From NCBI GenBank assembly GCA_019186945.1, contig JABAQJ010000007.1, positions 186,001 to 250,000 of the forward strand: 64,000 bases of DNA, given 5' to 3'. A program made the translations under genes and the position numbers. Numbering within the stretch: position 1 is the stretch's first letter; the number at the start of each line of letters is the position of its first letter. The DNA is from Gemmatimonadaceae bacterium (GTDB lineage Bacteria > Gemmatimonadota > Gemmatimonadetes > Gemmatimonadales > Gemmatimonadaceae). The notes under the pieces are model-generated. The model saw nothing but the letters and a program-made list of their open reading frames with translations, had not been told where the DNA came from and did not search any database. Shown piece after piece: positions 10,708-20,138 of this stretch.

Positions 10708-11499
10708 ATGCAGCGCGCCATGGCAACCGTGCTCGCCGCGCTGCTGGCGTCTCTGTTGCTGCTGTTTCTGGCGGCTCCGATCGTCGAGTTGATAGCGCGC
10801 GCTGGCGGCACCGGCATCGCCCGCCTGGGCAGCGACAAGGAACTGAGGGCGGCGCTGACAATGACCACGCTGTGTGCGCTGGTTGCGACCGCGCTTGGCG
10901 TCCTGGGCGGCACGCCTCTCGCCTGGCTCCTGTCGCGGCGCCGGTTCCGGGGACGAGCGATTCTCTCAGCGGTGCTCGATCTGCCGCTCCTGATCCCGCA
11001 TCCCGTCGCCGGCATCGCCCTGCTGCTCGTTTTCGGTCGCGACAGCGCCGCGGGACAGGCCGCCATCGCGTTCGGCCTCCGCGTCGTGGGAACACCGGTC
11101 GGTATCGTCCTCGCCATGCTGTTCGTGTCCGCGTCTCTTTTCATCAGCGGCGCCCGCGAAGCGTTCGCCAGGGTCGACCGACGCTACGAAGCGGTCGCCC
11201 GCACGTTAGGCGACAGTGCGTGGCGCGCCTTCAGACGCGTGACGCTTCCGCTTGCCGCTCGCGGTATCCTCGCTTCGGCGATCGTGATGTGGGCGCGCGC
11301 GGTGAGCGAGTTCGGCGCGATCGTCATTCTCACCTACAATCCGAAAACTGCCAGCGTTCTTAGCTACGATCGATTCACCGCGTTCGGACTGCCGGACGCA
11401 CTGCCGGTCGCCGCCGTCCTCGCGCTGCTCGCCCTGATTCCGCTTACGCTGCTGCGTGCGCTCCGTGTGGACGGCGCCGCCGCTGTCGAGCGCGCATGA
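10708..11499 (+). CDS. Molybdate/tungstate-type ABC permease
   Basis: A 263-residue binding-protein-dependent permease of the ModB/WtpB/CysW type with six predicted spans. The EAA loop that contacts the ATPase is visible as YEAVARTLGDSAWRAFRRVTLPLA. The SEFGAIVIL segment near residue 205 is typical of molybdate, tungstate and sulfate permeases. The start at ATG 10708 is preceded by GGAG at a good distance; the frame is open further upstream without support. No periplasmic binding protein is encoded nearby, so it must come from elsewhere or be absent. It overlaps the next gene by 4 bases (ATGA). Confidence 0.85.
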   Translation: MQRAMATVLAALLASLLLLFLAAPIVELIARAGGTGIARLGSDKELRAALTMTTLCALVATALGVLGGTPLAWLLSRRRFRGRAILSAVLDLPLLIPHPVAGIALLLVFGRDSAAGQAAIAFGLRVVGTPVGIVLAMLFVSASLFISGAREAFARVDRRYEAVARTLGDSAWRAFRRVTLPLAARGILASAIVMWARAVSEFGAIVILTYNPKTASVLSYDRFTAFGLPDALPVAAVLALLALIPLTLLRALRVDGAAAVERA

Positions 11500-12578
11500 T
11501 CGACGTGACCGGACTGAGCGCGCGCGCCGGCGACTTCTGGCTCCGCGACGTGACCTTCACCGTTCCCGCATCGGCGTACGGCGTGGTGATCGGCCCGGCC
11601 GGCTCGGGGAAAACCACCCTGCTCGAAACGATCGCCGGCATCGTTCCCGCGCACACGGGCAGACTCCGGTTAGGCTCGCGTGACGCGGGCGATCTGCCAC
11701 CGGAAGCGCGACAGGTAGCGCTGGCCTATCAGCACGCGTTCCTCTTCCCCCACCTCACGGTGCGCGAGAACGTCAGCTATGGCGCTGCCAGCGGCGCCGA
11801 GGCTGATGAAATGGCCCGCCGCTTCGACGTGGTCGACCTCCTCGATCGGAGCGTCCGCGGCTTGAGCGGCGGCGAACGCCAGCTGGTGTCGATCGCACGA
11901 ACGCTCGCGCGGGGCGCTCCGTACCTGCTGCTGGATGAACCATTCAGCGCGCTCGACCCTCGGCGCCGTGCCCGAACGCGTCGCGAGGTCCGGGCTCTCC
12001 ACAAAGAGCGCGGGCTGACGGTCCTTCAGGTAACGCACGATTTCACGGAGGCCGGCATGCTTGGCGACGTCGCCATCCTGCTGGACGGCGGGCGCGTTCT
12101 GCAATACGGGCCGCCAGAAGAAGTCTTCCGGAAGCCCGCCTCGCCCTACATCGCCGAGTTCCTGGGAGCGGAAAACGTCTATGCGGGGATCGCTCACGTC
12201 GTACAGGACCGTGCTCCGGACTGGGCCGAAGGCACCTCTGGGGAGCTGTCCCGCGCCCACCACGCGGTCGAGTTCAGATCCGGCTCGATGACGATCTACG
12301 CCGTGAGCGAAGTGATCCTCGAGGGACCGACTTACGCCGTAGTGCGGGGCGAGGACGTAGTACTGTCGTTGGTGCCGCACACGACGTCTGCCAGGAACAC
12401 GTACGAGGGCGTGATTTCGGAGGTGGTCACCACGGGCGCGTTGTCTCGCGTCACGTTGACTGCACATGACCTCCCGATCGTTGCTTCGCTCACCACGCGA
12501 TCGGTTCAGGAACTGGGACTGACTGTCGGGGTGCGCGCCCATGCGTCGTTCAAGGCACTGGCGGTGCACCTGTGCTAG
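11496..12578 (+). CDS. Molybdate/tungstate-type ABC ATP-binding protein
   Basis: A 360-residue ATPase coupled to the permease by an ATGA overlap. It has Walker A GPAGSGKTT, signature LSGGERQL, Walker B LLLDEPFSALD and the H-loop VTHDFTEA. The C-terminal 130 residues look like a TOBE/MOP oxyanion-binding region, as in ModC, WtpC and CysA. Tungstate or molybdate is the likely substrate, and a molybdenum hydroxylase is encoded about 20 kb downstream; sulfate cannot be excluded by sequence alone. Confidence 0.85.
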   Translation: MIDVTGLSARAGDFWLRDVTFTVPASAYGVVIGPAGSGKTTLLETIAGIVPAHTGRLRLGSRDAGDLPPEARQVALAYQHAFLFPHLTVRENVSYGAASGAEADEMARRFDVVDLLDRSVRGLSGGERQLVSIARTLARGAPYLLLDEPFSALDPRRRARTRREVRALHKERGLTVLQVTHDFTEAGMLGDVAILLDGGRVLQYGPPEEVFRKPASPYIAEFLGAENVYAGIAHVVQDRAPDWAEGTSGELSRAHHAVEFRSGSMTIYAVSEVILEGPTYAVVRGEDVVLSLVPHTTSARNTYEGVISEVVTTGALSRVTLTAHDLPIVASLTTRSVQELGLTVGVRAHASFKALAVHLC

Positions 12579-12714
12579 GTGATGGCGGCGCGTTCGGGCG
12601 GCCAGGGTTTGCCCGAGTGTCCGAGCCTGGGCCAGTGCACTAATTGTTCAGCCACGCTGGCCTTCCAGCAGGAATCCGAGCACTATTGCCGCCACAGACA
12701 ATCCAGGAGGAGCA

Positions 12715-13044
12715 GTGGCCGAACAAGACCGGGAGCACCCGATCGGTTGGGGTCAAGCACGCGAGCTGATCAACGCGCATCGATCCGCGGCGGGCGTTAC
12801 GGCCAGTACGTCTGAAGGAGGGTTTGGTGGCGCGTTCAAGAAGGCAGATGTGATCGCCCTGCTGTCCCAAGCCAACTGTCAGTTCCTGCGTATCTACTAC
12901 GCCAAGCGCGCGAACGGTTCACCCACCCTTGTGTTGATCGGTGTGGATGCCGATCGCAAGGACATGGTTGACGGTATCGTGTTGGACAACCACTACCCGT
13001 GCCCGCCCTGGTGCCCGCCCGGCGGTGCCGGCGAGAAGGCCTGA
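12715..13044 (+). CDS. Small protein with C-terminal PCPPWCPP motif, paralogue 1
   Basis: A 109-residue protein of unknown function. The GTG start has a strong AGGAGG four bases upstream. The core KADVIALLSQANCQFLRIYY ... LVLIGVDADRKDMV is predicted alpha/beta, and the end is LDNHYPCPPWCPPGG. The same core and tail recur in the next gene, so the pair arose by duplication. From memory, Bacteroidota have many uncharacterised proteins of about 130 residues with a PCPPxC tail and a similar ...VGIRIYYG...LVIVGVD core; I could not search. The tail Cys pair might bind metal, form a disulfide or be modified. It is first in an apparent operon ending in a two-component system. Confidence 0.72.
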   Translation: MAEQDREHPIGWGQARELINAHRSAAGVTASTSEGGFGGAFKKADVIALLSQANCQFLRIYYAKRANGSPTLVLIGVDADRKDMVDGIVLDNHYPCPPWCPPGGAGEKA

Positions 13045-13095
13045 ACGCCCAAGCAGTTCCTGACACCTCATCCATTCCCGTTCGGAGTAAGACGA

Positions 13096-13518
13096 ATGCC
13101 CCGTTCGTACGATCGGAAGCGCACGCTTCCTCCCCCGTCGAATCACCGCGTGACGTTGAAGCAGGCTGCCACCCTCACGCGTAACTATCGCGAATCGATT
13201 CCCGCCGCCGACAAGACCGGCTTCTTTCACGCACAGGCCGTACGCGACCTGCTCAAGCAGCCGGGTGTCGTAGGGGTGCGTTACTACCACGGCCTGGACA
13301 GCAAAGGATGCTACCATCTCGTTCTCGTCGGGGTCGACAAGGAAGGGCGCGACATCGTGGAGTCGAAGCGCAATAGACCGCGAGACGGCGCCAAGGCAAT
13401 CACGCAGGAATCCGCGGCCAAGGGCGCCCTTGCCATCGGCACAGGCTCGGCGGTGATCCTCGACAATCACTATCCGTGCCCGCCATGGTGTCCACCACCC
13501 GGACCACTCAACGCCTGA
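13096..13518 (+). CDS. Small protein with C-terminal PCPPWCPP motif, paralogue 2
   Basis: A 140-residue protein, longer at the N-terminus than its upstream paralogue (VTLKQAATLTRNYRESIPAA) and with a 20-residue insertion before the tail. The shared pattern is AQAVRDLLKQPGVVGVRYYHG...YHLVLVGVDKEGRDIV and then LDNHYPCPPWCPPPG. GGAG lies 8 bases before the ATG. The strict conservation of a 13-residue tail between two paralogues that otherwise differ suggests the tail is the functional part. The protein has no signal peptide or membrane span. It is 51 bases after paralogue 1 and 18 before the membrane-protein gene. Confidence 0.72.
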   Translation: MPRSYDRKRTLPPPSNHRVTLKQAATLTRNYRESIPAADKTGFFHAQAVRDLLKQPGVVGVRYYHGLDSKGCYHLVLVGVDKEGRDIVESKRNRPRDGAKAITQESAAKGALAIGTGSAVILDNHYPCPPWCPPPGPLNA

Positions 13519-13536
13519 CCGACCCGGCGCTTTCGA

Positions 13537-14208
13537 GTGGATACCCTCCCCTGGGAACTGCACGCGGCTACCGCCCTGGAGGGGTTGATTCCGTTGTTCG
13601 TCTGGTTGCGCTCGCGCCTCGCGAAAACGGAGATCAGCAGGCCGCGCCGCCTCGTCATGGCGTGGTTGCTCGTGCAGTTCACATCGGACCTGTTTCAGCT
13701 GTACACGATGAGTCGGGGCATCAGCAACCTCTGGGCACGGTACCTGATCAGCCCGACCAGCGATGTGCTGATGCTCTACGCCCTCTCGATGTGGCAGACA
13801 CACCCGCTGCGACGCATAGGCATTCGCGTCGCCATGCTGGTGCTGGTGCCGGTATGGTTCGGGTATGCTATCGCCGAAGGCGTTGGCGCTTTCGGGCGCT
13901 ACTCGGATCCGCTCCGCTCGATCGTGATCCTCGTAGCGACGCTGGTGACCCTGGTCGGTAACGGACTCACGACCACGACACGAATCTCCAGGCACGATTG
14001 GTTCTGGGTCGCCGCCGGTGTCGCCCTGTACTTCGCACTCGAGGCTGCATTGGGCCCGTTCCTCGAGTTCATCTTCGCCGATTCGCGCGACATCGCGTTG
14101 CGAGCCTTCTTGTTCAAGGCGAGATTCGATATCCTCGCCTATCTCCTCATCGCCGCAGGCCTGCTGTGTCCTCAGGAAACAGCGAGACCATCTGGAACCT
14201 CTATCTGA
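13537..14208 (+). CDS. Multi-span (about seven) membrane protein upstream of a histidine kinase
   Basis: A 223-residue integral membrane protein with about seven hydrophobic segments and no recognised domain. Segments include LEGLIPLFVWL, VMAWLLVQFTSDLF, MLVLVPVWFGYAI, IVILVATLVTLVGNGL, WFWVAAGVALYFALEAAL and FDILAYLLIAAGLLC. Its last 43 bases overlap the kinase gene, whose product has only one span and no sensory domain. I therefore infer that this protein is the sensory or membrane-anchoring partner of the kinase. The start is GTG 13537, which follows the stop of the PCPPWCPP gene by 18 bases; no strong ribosome-binding site is seen. Confidence 0.68.
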   Translation: MDTLPWELHAATALEGLIPLFVWLRSRLAKTEISRPRRLVMAWLLVQFTSDLFQLYTMSRGISNLWARYLISPTSDVLMLYALSMWQTHPLRRIGIRVAMLVLVPVWFGYAIAEGVGAFGRYSDPLRSIVILVATLVTLVGNGLTTTTRISRHDWFWVAAGVALYFALEAALGPFLEFIFADSRDIALRAFLFKARFDILAYLLIAAGLLCPQETARPSGTSI

Positions 14209-14957
14209 CGCTGGGCCTCGCCGCGGCCGTCATCCTGTTCGCGCTCATTTCGGCGCTTGTCATCTACCAGCGTCGCTTCGTCAAGCTTCATCGAACGTAC
14301 TCGAAAAACCTGTTGAGCGCGCAGGAGGAGGAGCGCGCCTGGGTGGCGCGTGAGGTGCATGACGACGCGCTCCAGCGCGTTGCCATGCTCGCGCATGAAC
14401 TCCACGAGGTTGCGGACGAACCGCCCGGCAACGTGGATCGGCAGAGACAGCGAATCGGCGCGATCGTGACGGAGGTAGAAGACCTTGGCGTGATGCTCCG
14501 GCGCGTTGCGCATCGGTTGCACCCCTCGTTGATTGACCAAGCGGGTCTTGTGCCGGCGCTGGAAGGGCTGGCCGGGGACGTTTCCCGCGCTCACGGCATC
14601 CAGGTGGACGTGGAAATCCCACCATCGAACGCCATTCCCGGCGTGCCGAGGGATGTCGCCCTGATACTCTATCGCATCGCTCAGGAGGGACTCCGCAACG
14701 TCGCGCGACATTCGGGTGTCAAGCGTGCATCGCTGCGGGTCGTGCCAACGCAGGACAACGAGTTGTCGCTCGAGATAGTCGATCGCGGGCGCGGGTTCGT
14801 TCACGACGACCACCCGAAGTCGCACAAGGGGCTCGGGCTCGTGAGCATGGCGGAGCGCGCGCGTCTCGCGGACGGTCGGCTCGAAGTATGGTCCGAGCCG
14901 GGCAAGGGAACGCGCCTCCGTGCGATCGTTCCCGCTCATCAGGGAGAGGTATCGTGA
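14166..14957 (+). CDS. Sensor histidine kinase, HisKA_3/HATPase_c type
   Basis: A 263-residue kinase of the NarL-partner class. One membrane span (residues about 10-32) is followed directly by the dimerisation and phosphoacceptor helix with the histidine in VAREVHDDALQ. The ATP-binding domain has an N-box (YRIAQEGLRNVARHS), G1 (DRGRGF) and GLGLVSMAERA. No PAS, GAF or periplasmic domain is present. GTG 14166 is the last plausible in-frame start before the span; the frame is open further upstream inside the membrane-protein gene. It overlaps that gene by 43 bases and the regulator gene by 4. Confidence 0.86.
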   Translation: MSSGNSETIWNLYLTLGLAAAVILFALISALVIYQRRFVKLHRTYSKNLLSAQEEERAWVAREVHDDALQRVAMLAHELHEVADEPPGNVDRQRQRIGAIVTEVEDLGVMLRRVAHRLHPSLIDQAGLVPALEGLAGDVSRAHGIQVDVEIPPSNAIPGVPRDVALILYRIAQEGLRNVARHSGVKRASLRVVPTQDNELSLEIVDRGRGFVHDDHPKSHKGLGLVSMAERARLADGRLEVWSEPGKGTRLRAIVPAHQGEVS

Positions 14958-15622
14958 TTCGCCGTGCGGCCGTAATGATCGCGGACGACCATCCGCTCGT
15001 CAGTCAGGGACTCAAGGCAGTCCTCAAGCCACAGTACAATGTGGTGGCCGTCGAGAGCGATGCGCGCGAAGTCGTGAACAGTGCGCTTCGACACCGGCCG
15101 GATGTGATCATCCTCGATCTCTCGATGCCGCATCGCAACGGACTCGAGTTGCTCCCGGAACTGATCGCTGCCGTTCCGCAGGCGAAGGTGATCGTGGTGA
15201 CGATGCACATCGATCGCACGCTGGCGGACCTGGCGATGCAATCCGGAGCGCACGGTTTCCTGCCCAAGGAGTCGTCGGCGGAGGAACTGAACAACGCGAT
15301 CGCCGAGGTTCTCGAAGGAAAGCGTTTCATCTCGCCGCGCGTACCCAAACGATCGTTCCGTGACGGGGCCGCGGTCGAACATCCGGAACTCGACCGCCTG
15401 ACGCCGCGGCATCTCGAGATCCTGCGCCTCATCGGCGATGGGAAGAGCAGCGGCGAGATCGCGGAGGAACTTGGGCTTAGTCCTCGCACCGTCGAGTTCC
15501 ACAGATCGAGCATTCGCAAGGCGCTTGGCGTCACGACGGAGATCGGCCTGGTGCGGTTCGCTGTCGTGCTTCGTGTCGGCAGCAATCGGTCGCAGGAATC
15601 GGAGGACACGTCCGAGGCCTGA
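14954..15622 (+). CDS. Response regulator, NarL/LuxR type
   Basis: A 222-residue two-domain regulator. The receiver has the acidic pair in IADDHPL, the phosphoacceptor Asp in VIILDLSMP and the conserved Lys in LPKESS. The C-terminal GerE-type helix-turn-helix is LTPRHLEILRLIGDGKSSGEIAEELGLSPRTVEFHRSSI. The GTG start at 14954 overlaps the kinase stop (GTGA) and has GGAGAGG upstream. It almost certainly receives the phosphate from the kinase just before it. Its targets are unknown; the promoter ahead of the PCPPWCPP genes is an obvious candidate. Confidence 0.92.
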   Translation: MIRRAAVMIADDHPLVSQGLKAVLKPQYNVVAVESDAREVVNSALRHRPDVIILDLSMPHRNGLELLPELIAAVPQAKVIVVTMHIDRTLADLAMQSGAHGFLPKESSAEELNNAIAEVLEGKRFISPRVPKRSFRDGAAVEHPELDRLTPRHLEILRLIGDGKSSGEIAEELGLSPRTVEFHRSSIRKALGVTTEIGLVRFAVVLRVGSNRSQESEDTSEA

Positions 15623-15715
15623 GCAGCATGCTCGGGCACGGCTGCACTCGCCGGCGGTCGTGCCTAGGAGTTGCCCGAGTATACAGACTTCCCGGACGGG
15701 CCTATCCTCCGTCCC

Positions 15716-16507
15716 ATGAAGAACTCACACTCTCTCCTCGTGCTGGAGCCTCCCTACGCCATGGTCCGCTGGCTGCGCGATGACGCGCCAGCGATGGGCT
15801 CCGTGCTGTTGGTCGATGCGGCGATTCGCGATGTCACGATGGCTGACCTCCGCGTGACGATGGATGTTACTCCGTGGTGCCCGGTCTGCGTCCTGTCGGC
15901 CAAACGACTCGGTGGCCGCGGGGTCAGGCGCATTCCCCGAAGCTGCCAGGTCGCCAGTCTGGACACCTTGGCGGATCCGGCAGCGGCGATCCTGCGGGCG
16001 GTCGACGATCGTCCGCGTCCTACACCCAGCACGCTGGTGGAATGGATCGTTAGGCGGGCACGGGCTCACGCCGTCGGCCGCACGCTTTCCGACCTGTTCT
16101 CCCGGCCACTGCTGAGCAGGACGGAGGCGTCGTTCCTCTCTTACCCGGTGCGCGAGCACCTCGCAACGCTTGGCACCTGGTCCGCCATCGACTGGCAGTA
16201 CGCGGCTCAGTTCGCCGAGTATGCGGCCGATAGAACGTCTCTCAACCGACTGTTGCTCGACCCCGTGGGATCGAGAGACACACTGCAACGCATGCAGGAA
16301 CTCCTTGGCATCGACGAACAGCAGTTCCGCGCGTCGCACGGATGGGAATGGGTGCTGGAAGCGTCATTGCGTCGTTCCGGTTTCTTCGAGACCCGAGTGC
16401 CCGACGTGCGGCGCTTGACGGATCGGCGTTCGGCTGTGGCTGCGATCGCCGCGGGGCAACCCGCGTTCGCCAGGCCGCGATACTCGGACCGTCGCCAGAT
16501 CGCATAG
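15716..16507 (+). CDS. Hypothetical protein, unknown function
   Basis: A 263-residue protein I do not recognise. The first 120 residues resemble a receiver or regulator-like alpha/beta fold only loosely (SLLVLEPPYAMVRWL...SVLLVDAAIRDVTMADLR). A CPVC motif lies near residue 57. The middle is helical, and the region PVREHLATLGTWSAIDWQYAAQFAEYA might be a helix-turn-helix domain as in AraC-like regulators. No ribosome-binding site precedes ATG 15716, but a -10-like TATCCT lies at 15703-15708, compatible with a leaderless message. The gene follows the two-component operon by 93 bases. Confidence 0.55.
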   Translation: MKNSHSLLVLEPPYAMVRWLRDDAPAMGSVLLVDAAIRDVTMADLRVTMDVTPWCPVCVLSAKRLGGRGVRRIPRSCQVASLDTLADPAAAILRAVDDRPRPTPSTLVEWIVRRARAHAVGRTLSDLFSRPLLSRTEASFLSYPVREHLATLGTWSAIDWQYAAQFAEYAADRTSLNRLLLDPVGSRDTLQRMQELLGIDEQQFRASHGWEWVLEASLRRSGFFETRVPDVRRLTDRRSAVAAIAAGQPAFARPRYSDRRQIA

Positions 16508-16767: not shown

Positions 16768-17079
16768 TTAGGGTGCCAGCGTCTCGGCAATCACTCGCCC
16801 GTCAGCCACACGCACCACGATCGACGTCAGACCGCGCATCGCGGGCCCGGCACGCAGTGCGCCCGTTGCCACGTCGAATCGGGCGCCATGCCACGCGCAT
16901 TGCAGCTCGCATCGGTCCAGGATTTCGCCCTCGGCCAGCGACATCCCGGCGTGAGGACACTCGTCGACAAACGCCGTTACCCGCTCTCCCACCCGGACGA
17001 GACAGATGGCGCGCCCGCCGGCATCGACGCGGAGGACGCCCGGATCCGGAATCGCGTCTATCGCTGCCAGGTCGATCAT
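16768..17079 (-). CDS. Rieske-type [2Fe-2S] ferredoxin
   Basis: A 103-residue soluble protein consisting of one Rieske domain. Cluster ligands are seen in CPHAGMSLAEGEI and CAWHGARFD (C-x-H ... C-x2-H). Single-domain proteins of this kind pass electrons to oxygenases or appear in suf operons. It lies 34 bases downstream of sufU on the same strand as the last gene of the suf operon. There is no twin-arginine or other signal peptide. The stop codon TAA falls in a copy of the recurrent CCCTAACGC sequence. Confidence 0.87.
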   Translation of the reverse strand: MIDLAAIDAIPDPGVLRVDAGGRAICLVRVGERVTAFVDECPHAGMSLAEGEILDRCELQCAWHGARFDVATGALRAGPAMRGLTSIVVRVADGRVIAETLAP

Positions 17080-17113
17080 GCGACGAACGGGCGTCCGCGT
17101 ACCGCCACGAGCG

Positions 17114-17578
17114 CTATCTTGCGTCAGTTGGCGGAGAGGGATTGGGCGCCGACTCCTGCAGCGCTTCGTGCAGCGCGTGCCACGCGAGGCTGGCGCATTT
17201 GACCCGCATGGGAAGGCGGGCCACCCCGGAAAACACCTGTAACCGGCCTAACGATTTCTGCGACTCGGCATCGCCAGTGCCAGTCACCAGGGCGTGGAAC
17301 CGCTCGAACAGTGCCTCGGCTTCCGCGCGCGACTTCCCCTTGATTGCTTGCGTCATCATCGACGCCGATGCCTTGGAAATCGCGCATCCTTCGCCAACGA
17401 AAGACACGTCGGCCACCCGGTCGCCATCGAACCTGACGAACAGCTCCAATCGGTCGCCGCACAACGGATTGTGCCCCTTCACGTGCGCCGACGCGTCCGC
17501 GAGCGGTCCCCAGTTCCGGGGCGAGCGATTGTGGTCCAGGATGATCTCCTGGTAGAGCTCGCCGGTGTCCGTGCTCAT
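17114..17578 (-). CDS. sufU: SufU-type iron-sulfur assembly / zinc sulfur-transfer protein
   Basis: A 154-residue IscU-fold protein. Three conserved Cys positions are visible: NPLCGD (about 43), EGCAISKAS and VKCASLAWH. The spacing and the insertion between the last two match SufU rather than IscU. SufU is a zinc protein that accepts persulfide sulfur from SufS. The ATG overlaps the sufS stop codon (ATGA), so the two are made together, which fits their known partnership. Confidence 0.93.
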   Translation of the reverse strand: MSTDTGELYQEIILDHNRSPRNWGPLADASAHVKGHNPLCGDRLELFVRFDGDRVADVSFVGEGCAISKASASMMTQAIKGKSRAEAEALFERFHALVTGTGDAESQKSLGRLQVFSGVARLPMRVKCASLAWHALHEALQESAPNPSPPTDAR

Positions 17579-18843
17579 CCGAACACCCGCCGTACGACGT
17601 GAAGGGCGTCGATCATGGCGTCCACATCTTCCCGGGTCGTGTACACGTAGAACGACGCTCGTGCCGTCGATGGAACGCCAAACCGTCGCATCAAAGGCTG
17701 GGCACAGTGATGGCCGGCGCGCACCGCCACTCCCTCGCCGTCTAGGATCGTCCCGATGTCGTGAGGATGCACGCCCTCCATCGTGAAACTGAGCACACCG
17801 GCCTTGTGCCGCGCCGTGCCGATCACGCGCGTGCCGCGTACTTCGGCAAGGCGCTCGGTAGCGTACGCGAGGATGTCGCGTTCGTGCGACGCCACGGCTT
17901 CCATGCCAAGCCGTTGCAGGTAGCCGATCGCGGGAGCGAACGCGACGACCGCGGCGATGTCCGGCGTCCCCGCTTCGAACTTCGACGGCAGTGGAGCGAA
18001 TGTGGTACCCTGCTCGGACACCGTGTCGATCATGTCGCCGCCGCCCTGATATGGCGGCATCCGGTCGAGCCACGAGGTTCTGCCGTACAACACGCCCACG
18101 CCCGTCGGCCCGAGCATCTTGTGGCCAGAGAACGCGTAGAAGTCGCAGTCCAGCGACTGGACGTCCACCTCCATGTGCGGTGCGGCTTGGGCGCCGTCCA
18201 GCAATACGGCCGCGCCCACCTCATGCGCAGCGTCGGAGATCTCGCGCGCCGGGTTGATCGTGCCTAACGCGTTCGAAACGTGACCGAGCGCTACCAGTCG
18301 CGTCCGCGGCGAGAGCAGCCGCCGGTAGGCGTCCATGTCCAGTTCGCCCGTGTCCTGCACGGGAACGAACCGCAGTACGGCGCCAGCTCGATCGGCCAGC
18401 AGTTGCCACGGAACCAGGTTCGAGTGGTGCTCGAGCTGCGATACGACGATTTCGTCGCCGGCGCGCACGAACGCCTGCCCGAACGACGTCGCCACCAGGT
18501 TGATCGACTCCGTCGTCCCGCGCGTGAAAACGACTTCATGCACGTGCGGTGCGTTGATGAATCGCCGAACCGTCTCCCGCGATGCGTCGTACAGCGTCGT
18601 CGCACGCTCGGACAGGTAGTGGACCGCGCGGTGGATGTTGCCGTTCGACGTTGAGTAGTAGTCGCAGAGCGCATCGATGACGACTCGAGGCTTCTGGCTC
18701 GTCGCCGCGCTGTCCAGGTATACCAGTCGCTTACCGCGCGCGCTGACGCCGAGGATCGGGAAATCCGCGCGTACCGCGTGGGGGTCCAGGCGCGGCACCC
18801 CCGTCCCCATCGTTATCCCGGTCGGTGCGACGATCGAACTCAT
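17575..18843 (-). CDS. sufS: Cysteine desulfurase SufS
   Basis: A 422-residue PLP-dependent group II cysteine desulfurase. PLP is held on the Lys of AFSGHKMLGPTG; EHHSNLVPW and DGAQAAPH are the other cofactor-contact motifs. The catalytic Cys lies in RAGHHCAQPLM near residue 373, on the short loop typical of SufS. It converts cysteine to alanine and passes sulfur to SufU for Fe-S cluster building on SufBCD. Its ATG overlaps the sufD stop and its stop overlaps the sufU start. Confidence 0.95.
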   Translation of the reverse strand: MSSIVAPTGITMGTGVPRLDPHAVRADFPILGVSARGKRLVYLDSAATSQKPRVVIDALCDYYSTSNGNIHRAVHYLSERATTLYDASRETVRRFINAPHVHEVVFTRGTTESINLVATSFGQAFVRAGDEIVVSQLEHHSNLVPWQLLADRAGAVLRFVPVQDTGELDMDAYRRLLSPRTRLVALGHVSNALGTINPAREISDAAHEVGAAVLLDGAQAAPHMEVDVQSLDCDFYAFSGHKMLGPTGVGVLYGRTSWLDRMPPYQGGGDMIDTVSEQGTTFAPLPSKFEAGTPDIAAVVAFAPAIGYLQRLGMEAVASHERDILAYATERLAEVRGTRVIGTARHKAGVLSFTMEGVHPHDIGTILDGEGVAVRAGHHCAQPLMRRFGVPSTARASFYVYTTREDVDAMIDALHVVRRVFG

Positions 18844-20134
18844 TCGCCTGCGTATCGTGCGAGCGTCAGCGCTTCGAGCGCGGTCCGAAGCGGTTCCAGC
18901 TCGATCGTCTCGAGCACCTCGGCGGCGAACGCGTAGGTCAGGAGCCGCCGGGTCGTCGCTGCGGTGATGCCACGGCTCCGCATGTAGAACGCGCTGAGCG
19001 CGTCGAGTCGTCCAACTGTCGCTCCATGCGTGCACTTCACGTCGTCGGCGAATATCTCCAGCTGCGGCTTCGTGTCGATGCGGGCACGCTCGGACAGGAG
19101 CAACGTGTTGTTCGTCTGCTTGCCGTCGGTCTTCTGCGCCTCGGCGTGGACATACACCTTGCCGTTGAAAACGCCGTGGGATGCTCCGTCGAGGATCCCC
19201 TTGTACAGTTCGCGGGAGTAACAGTTGGGTCGGGCATGCTCGATCCGCGTCTGGTGATCGCAGTGCTGAACGTCGTCTAGCATGTACAGGCCGTTCAGCG
19301 TCGCCCCGGATCCTTCGCCTCCCAGCGTCGCGTAGATGTTGATCCGTGAAAGTTCCGCTCCCGTGGCGAACGAGAACGAATGGTAATGGGCGTCGCGTGC
19401 CAGCCGAGCGTCGACGTGGCCGGTGTGGAAGGCCCGCATGTTCTCGCGCTGCAGTCGGTAGTGGCGCAACGTGGCGCCATCATCGAGCACCGCCTCGGTG
19501 ACGGCGTTCGTCAGCGAGCGTCCGCCAGCCAGCGACGCGTACTGTTCGATCAGGCTGACTTCCGCGTTGCGGTCGACGACGACAAGGTTACGCGGGTGCG
19601 TGACGCCGCCGTCGGCGGCGTCATCCGTAAGAAACAGCATGTGCAACGGACGAGACACCCGCGTGTCCCGCGCCACATGAATGACGCTCCCGTCGCGCAT
19701 CAGTGCGGTGTTCAGTGCGACGAAGGCAAAGGCCTGCTCGTTGAAGCTGGCCACCCTGCCCAGATATCGTTCTACCAGCGTAGGCTCTTCCAGCAGGGCA
19801 CTGGCGAGGCTCATCGCGCGCACGCCGACCGGGAGCGACGCCGTCGACGACAGCGACGGCGCGAACCGGCCGTTCACGAAGACCAGCAGCGGCCACTCGT
19901 CGGATCCCGCCATCCACGGCGCGATCGCCGACCGGTCGATGGGTGCCGCCATCGGCCGCATCGGCTCGAACGAAGACTCGACGATCGGCGCCGGCGAAGT
20001 GAAATGCCAATCCTCGTTACGGGGCGTGGGGAACCCATGGGCGGTGAATCGCGCGAGCGCGTCACGCCGCATCGCGGCAAGGAACGACGGCCCCTCCTGC
20101 GGCAGTGCAGCGAAGTGCTCCAGGAAGGCCGTGT

Positions 20135-20138
<4 letters not shown>
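18840..20138 (-). CDS. sufD: Fe-S cluster scaffold subunit SufD
   Basis: A 432-residue SufBD-family protein. The helical N-terminus (FPTPRNEDWHFTS) and the long right-handed beta-helix core are recognisable, and the end carries the conserved CTHGATVGRLDALSAFYMRSRGI block. SufD pairs with SufB and two SufC ATPases to build clusters and take in iron. It starts with GTG, overlapping the sufC stop (GTGA), and ends overlapping the sufS start (ATGA). Confidence 0.94.

Follow-up and report, generated by a model that had tools for sequence, protein, structure and literature searches.

In the UhpC-UhpB-UhpA system of enterobacteria, a separate multi-span sensor, the transporter homologue UhpC, feeds a HisKA_3 kinase and a LuxR-type regulator, and the ComQXPA system of Bacillus comprises a small first protein, a HisKA_3 kinase and a LuxR-type regulator. 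In LiaFSR-LiaX, a membrane accessory protein, a kinase and a regulator are encoded in one operon and a further protein tunes the membrane pair; LiaF carries PF09922, LiaX carries PF13349, and it has been suggested that the whole may be a four-component system (PMC10269926). The locus analyzed here lies in a stretch of 64,000 nucleotides from a Gemmatimonadaceae bacterium (the window, meaning this whole stretch) and has the following features:

12601 to 12618, no strand assigned: candidate operator before SP1, GCCAGGGTTTGCCCGAGT, a weak, degenerate copy of the dyad ACTRGGG-N4-CCCYAGT
12715 to 13044, plus strand: SP1, small soluble protein of 109 aa with the tail LDNHYPCPPWCPP
13096 to 13518, plus strand: SP2, SP1 paralogue of 140 aa with an insert of about 28 residues ahead of the same tail LDNHYPCPPWCPP
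13537 to 14208, plus strand: 7TM, predicted seven-helix membrane protein of GPCR/rhodopsin-like arrangement, N-out/C-in by its positive charges
14166 to 14957, plus strand: histidine kinase with one TM span, HisKA_3 and HATPase_c, no sensor domain
14954 to 15622, plus strand: NarL/LuxR-type response regulator, Response_reg and GerE
15671 to 16507, plus strand: protein of unknown family, 278 aa, with a conserved WCPxC stretch; possible clade-specific sixth member

The coordinates, spacing and single strand given for the five genes in the original prediction were all exact on recheck, with gaps of 51 bases between SP1 and SP2 and 18 bases between SP2 and 7TM, followed by overlaps of 43 bases (7TM/kinase) and 4 bases (kinase/regulator). 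The start codon of SP1 is GTG, with AGGAGG just upstream. Both HisKA_3 and HATPase_c of the kinase and Response_reg and GerE of the regulator scored above the Pfam cut-off, in agreement with the single-span, sensor-less kinase and LuxR-type regulator proposed earlier, and the kinase adjoins the receiver-GerE regulator, as in a two-component system of the HisKA_3/NarL type. For SP1, SP2 and 7TM no Pfam family was found, with only scattered sub-threshold matches when 82 small-protein and 72 7TM homologues were included; no NCBIfam family came near its cut-off, and neither the small proteins nor 7TM had a sequence relative in the PDB. The membrane protein had been put forward as lacking a known domain, which these searches bear out, and the small-protein and 7TM families are both undescribed. 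A literature search of limited reach, on the tail motif and on such cassettes, returned nothing relevant. An antisense ORF of 358 aa (12919-13995, minus strand) was rejected for its wrong codon-position GC (0.77/0.50/0.62), whereas the plus-strand proteins are kept across phyla. A defence-system reading of the gene row was also rejected, since the PADLOC models of known anti-phage systems gave only generic receiver/HTH overlaps, and these in the regulator only.

The 13-residue tail LDNHYPCPPWCPP is identical in SP1 and SP2, whereas outside the tail the two proteins align at 26% identity (BLASTP E 5e-6), as expected of the paralogues with a shared C-terminus that had been postulated. Over the 13 codons compared (the residue preceding the tail and the first 12 tail residues), six differ synonymously and one changes the amino acid; because of the six synonymous differences, the tail identity appears to be kept by selection and not to stem from a recent copy. 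The window genome (3.95 Mb, 100% complete) contains no further convincing copy of the small protein. In the family, the tail follows a core of the form ...LxQPGCxGIRxYxxxxxxGxxxLVxVGVDxxGxD.... The SP1 model (pLDDT 85.9) consists of a helix, a helix and a beta hairpin, and its fold search gave nothing above noise (best Foldseek E 0.13, best Z 3.2), therefore no functional hint was obtained from it.

Small-protein relatives were found in 39 of the 395 Gemmatimonadota genomes sampled and in 44 of 395 from the phylum that contains Niastella, and further ones in Ignavibacteriae and Zixibacteriota records. Linkage was counted on stop-to-stop ORFs, with iterated profiles for 7TM, kinase and regulator and with duplicates removed. 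The small protein was followed by 7TM, a HisKA_3 kinase and a regulator for 129 of the 148 distinct genes with at least 3 kb downstream, that is, 35/40 in Gemmatimonadota, 60/66 in a profile scan of genome contigs (seven sequences; the scan selects for the motif [LI]L[ANS]Q[PA][GR]C) and 34/42 in a Bacteroidota sample chosen without regard to neighbours. Among small-protein genes whose downstream sequence extended for 0.9 kb or more, 146 of 157 had a 7TM gene directly next, and in several of the linkage failures the 7TM was kept next to a different output gene. Both families were present together in 36 Gemmatimonadota genomes, where 39 and 38 carriers among 395 lead to an expectation of 3.8 (P 4e-45, uncorrected for phylogeny). 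Five genomes did not match: in G354 a contig end interrupts the sequence, in G158 and G169 the 7TM beside the small protein has diverged, G088 has no recognisable small protein and G362 lies on short contigs. The homologues are thus not scattered, and the set of small protein, 7TM, kinase and regulator, as judged from profile matches, recurs in many soil and water bacteria. The sensory unit supposed for this locus, as far as such matches go, extends far past one genome. A separate promoter ahead of the membrane-protein gene had been named as an argument against a single system; no sigma-70-like promoter or terminator pattern was seen within the gene row, a weak indication given that the promoters of this phylum may differ.

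The 7TM model comprises seven helices (pLDDT 92.5, pTM 0.88). Loops 1, 3 and 5 carry positive charges throughout the family, which argues for an N-out/C-in orientation. Its best structural matches were class C GPCRs and rhodopsins (Z 12-13, maximum 13.2; rmsd 3.9), aligned over about 205 of 223 residues at a sequence identity of about 5-16%. Since the Foldseek E-values were all 0.035 or higher and such Z scores can reflect a common helical arrangement, the predicted likeness would be one of arrangement and not of proven kinship. No conserved Lys column was present in helix 7 among 72 7TM sequences, and a retinal-binding, microbial-rhodopsin reading was rejected for this reason. A Rosetta stone search found no 7TM-kinase or 7TM-small-protein fusions.

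The output genes behind the pair are exchanged in several relatives. Small protein and 7TM are followed by a PAS-HisKA-HATPase kinase in L082 and L086, by a PAS-HisKA-HATPase-receiver hybrid kinase in L198, by a PAS-HisKA_3 kinase in L203 and by larger HATPase kinases in L042, L043 and L062, while the sequence of L083 breaks off behind the PAS domain of the kinase. In Zixibacteriota L087 (4245-5395), a TM-PAS-GerE (LuxR-type) regulator follows them with no kinase; this may be a one-component version. The pair also duplicates as a unit, in the order SP-7TM-SP-7TM-kinase-regulator, in Larkinella (L124, L139, L144, L151) and in L202, and in Larkinella L124, L139 and L144 the tails of the first and second copies stay distinct across species (CPQxC versus CPPxC). 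To judge from these gene orders, the small protein and 7TM are the constant part when the output varies. Because the output is swapped and the pair duplicates together, it is most likely an input module, in which the small protein would be the dedicated partner of 7TM and not an output. The 7TM model and the swapped outputs support the sensor role proposed for the membrane protein. The small protein had been cast as output, ligand or effector; as it stays with 7TM when the kinase is replaced, the output and effector parts of that proposal have become less likely.

Taken together, we assign a probability of about 0.62 to the reading that SP1/SP2 and 7TM act as the module that supplies sensory input to a multi-component signalling system, with the small protein as soluble partner. 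In such a system, 7TM would serve as receptor for the kinase, which has no sensor of its own, and the small protein would be the dedicated soluble partner of 7TM, either ligand or co-sensor, probably docking on 7TM through the C-terminal Pro/Cys tail and the core. A change in this complex would switch the single-span kinase, which would phosphorylate the LuxR-type regulator, and the latter would probably feed back on the operon. The single gene row, the linkage, the co-occurrence, the paired duplication, the exchanged outputs and the upstream dyad of relatives are read in the DNA itself, and from there we infer physical contact, tail docking, the direction of signalling and autoregulation. Exceptions to the pair count against the reading: two lipoproteins of Hymenobacter elongatus (L084, 4863-7110), each with two small-protein domains, have no neighbouring 7TM or kinase, and 7TM-kinase-regulator sets occur without a recognisable small protein in L255 (2778-5025) and in L257 (2085-4820), the latter with two consecutive 7TM genes.

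Upstream of the row, sister genomes have exact or near copies of the dyad at the position aligned with 12601-12618. In relatives, the dyad ACTGGGGTTACCCCYAGT lies about 100 bases ahead of the first small-protein gene, and in other Gemmatimonadota genera ACTAGGGAAAACCCTAGT or a similar sequence is found similarly far ahead of it, in some cases between divergent genes. Autoregulation of the operon is plausible. A regulon search with the dyad gave few extra sites, several of them at the 3' end of a conserved gene of about 480 aa, and the dyad is therefore too unspecific to name targets. The same GGGG/CCCC kind of dyad was seen near base 1500 in L243, L244 and L248, at the 3' end of the gene of about 480 aa.

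Homologues of the 15671-16507 protein are found behind the regulator only in the clade with tandem small proteins (L034-L037, L058); the bases directly preceding its likely ATG are conserved too, which points to a promoter of its own or a start further upstream. Directly upstream of the row, an ABC permease and a TOBE-domain ATPase (10708-12578) are kept beside the cassette in L034-L037 and L058, with only the ATPase matched in L037, and in some sister genomes a GAF-PAS-HisKA-receiver hybrid kinase lies between the ABC genes and the cassette. On the minus strand, 16768-20138 contains Rieske, NifU-like, class V aminotransferase and SufBD-core genes and resembles a SUF-type iron-sulphur cluster set.

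The small protein might instead be the main output, induced by the regulator and acting elsewhere as an envelope protein, a chaperone or an effector, in which case 7TM would anchor or export it. It is indeed the first gene behind the candidate operator, and export or lipid anchoring is indicated for several relatives: at least nine, from several lineages, have a signal peptide or lipobox (L082, L083, L086, L103, L084, L194, L198, L203, L225), including the standalone lipoproteins of Hymenobacter. However, the pair is retained where another type of kinase follows or none at all, its members duplicate together and co-occur strictly, and among the Pfam matches of the 72 7TM homologues no transporter or peptidase family recurred consistently, so that we regard this explanation as unlikely. 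SP1 and SP2, like most members, have neither signal peptide nor lipobox, and the cassette type of L217 and L225 combines one unsignalled with one lipoprotein small protein; the topology of 7TM looks alike with or without an export signal on its partner, which also weighs against the input-module reading. As dedicated partners of 7TM, the unsignalled small proteins would either act at the cytoplasmic face or leave the cell by another route.

The 166 distinct family members fall into 76 with CPPxC, 26 with CPxxC, 12 with PxPP without the second Cys, 7 with another CP motif and 45 without CP; a few have PSPP or PVPP. The CP tail, in the sequences compared, is a frequent but not universal feature. 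A metal site or redox switch had been suggested for the Cys pair; stress would then be sensed by the small protein itself and relayed by 7TM. Although CPPxC or CPxxC is present in 102 of the 166 members and the Cys pair is kept in both SP1 and SP2, this is very unlikely: the members lacking CP or the second Cys lie in cassettes that do not otherwise differ, the core Cys is lost in SP2, and a Cys pair that is not universal makes a general metal or redox role improbable. Docking of the tail on 7TM, as we would propose, fits better. Across 63 non-redundant cassettes, small-protein distances were related to those of 7TM when controlling for the kinase (0.26, p 0.001), weakly to those of the kinase when controlling for 7TM (0.10, p 0.02) and not to those of the regulator (-0.09), although within one operon such correlations do not count as independent evidence of contact. 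In the tandem clade, with two small proteins and one 7TM (six genomes, the window and five relatives), the two tails differ by a mean of 1.5 residues within a genome, versus 3.2 and 2.4 amino-acid changes between orthologues, a match reached by 2 of 720 permutations, and 3-6 of the 13 codons differ synonymously. Selection by a shared partner would explain this matching, and old gene conversion could also have produced it.

In a further reading, along the lines of ComQXPA or Agr quorum sensing, the tail would give rise to a modified peptide pheromone that is exported and then sensed by 7TM and the kinase. This is highly improbable, because despite a conserved Cys/Pro-rich C-terminus, a HisKA_3 kinase with a LuxR-type regulator and tails that vary together inside a genome, the core, strongly conserved and folded, is a domain and not a leader, no modifying enzyme, peptidase or exporter was seen in the row, and the tails stay conserved from one species to another, where pheromones would diversify, and are quite different in many relatives.

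If the pair is an input module, two undescribed families would recur jointly as the front end of signalling systems while the kinase is exchanged. In Bacteroidota and Gemmatimonadota, kinases without a sensor would then have a receptor, bacterial signalling would gain a seven-helix receptor with a protein partner, and culturable genera such as Spirosoma, Larkinella and Niastella would offer a testable pair. More speculatively, and with little probability in our view, it may be a portable receptor module, a GPCR-like 7TM with its own protein ligand plugged into different kinases or a membrane-bound transcription factor for cell-cell or self-monitoring signalling in the two phyla.

Compared with known receptors, the predicted 7TM bundle aligns with the GPCR/rhodopsin fold over nearly its full length but lacks the conserved helix-7 retinal Lys of rhodopsins. 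The locus shares with ComQXPA a small first protein, a HisKA_3 kinase and a LuxR-type regulator; however, its row has no prenyltransferase-like gene, its small protein is a folded conserved domain and its membrane part is a separate protein. As in Uhp, a multi-span membrane sensor would be separate from the HisKA_3 kinase, and the window kinase resembles UhpB (E 2.5e-21, far below cut-off), whereas 7TM has no transporter match and Uhp is not known to have a small soluble partner. PF09922, the LiaF C-terminal domain, was absent from the window 7TM and from the matches of 72 homologues, as was PF13349 of LiaX from SP1/SP2 and the matches of 82 homologues; LiaX is a larger surface protein than the partner of about 100-140 aa found here, and the seven-helix bundle is unlike LiaF. 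Although no family is common to the accessory parts, LiaFSR-LiaX of Enterococcus and Bacillus is the nearest working analogue, with an accessory membrane protein, a regulator, a further protein and a kinase, LiaS, which the window kinase resembles (E 5.7e-13, far below cut-off).
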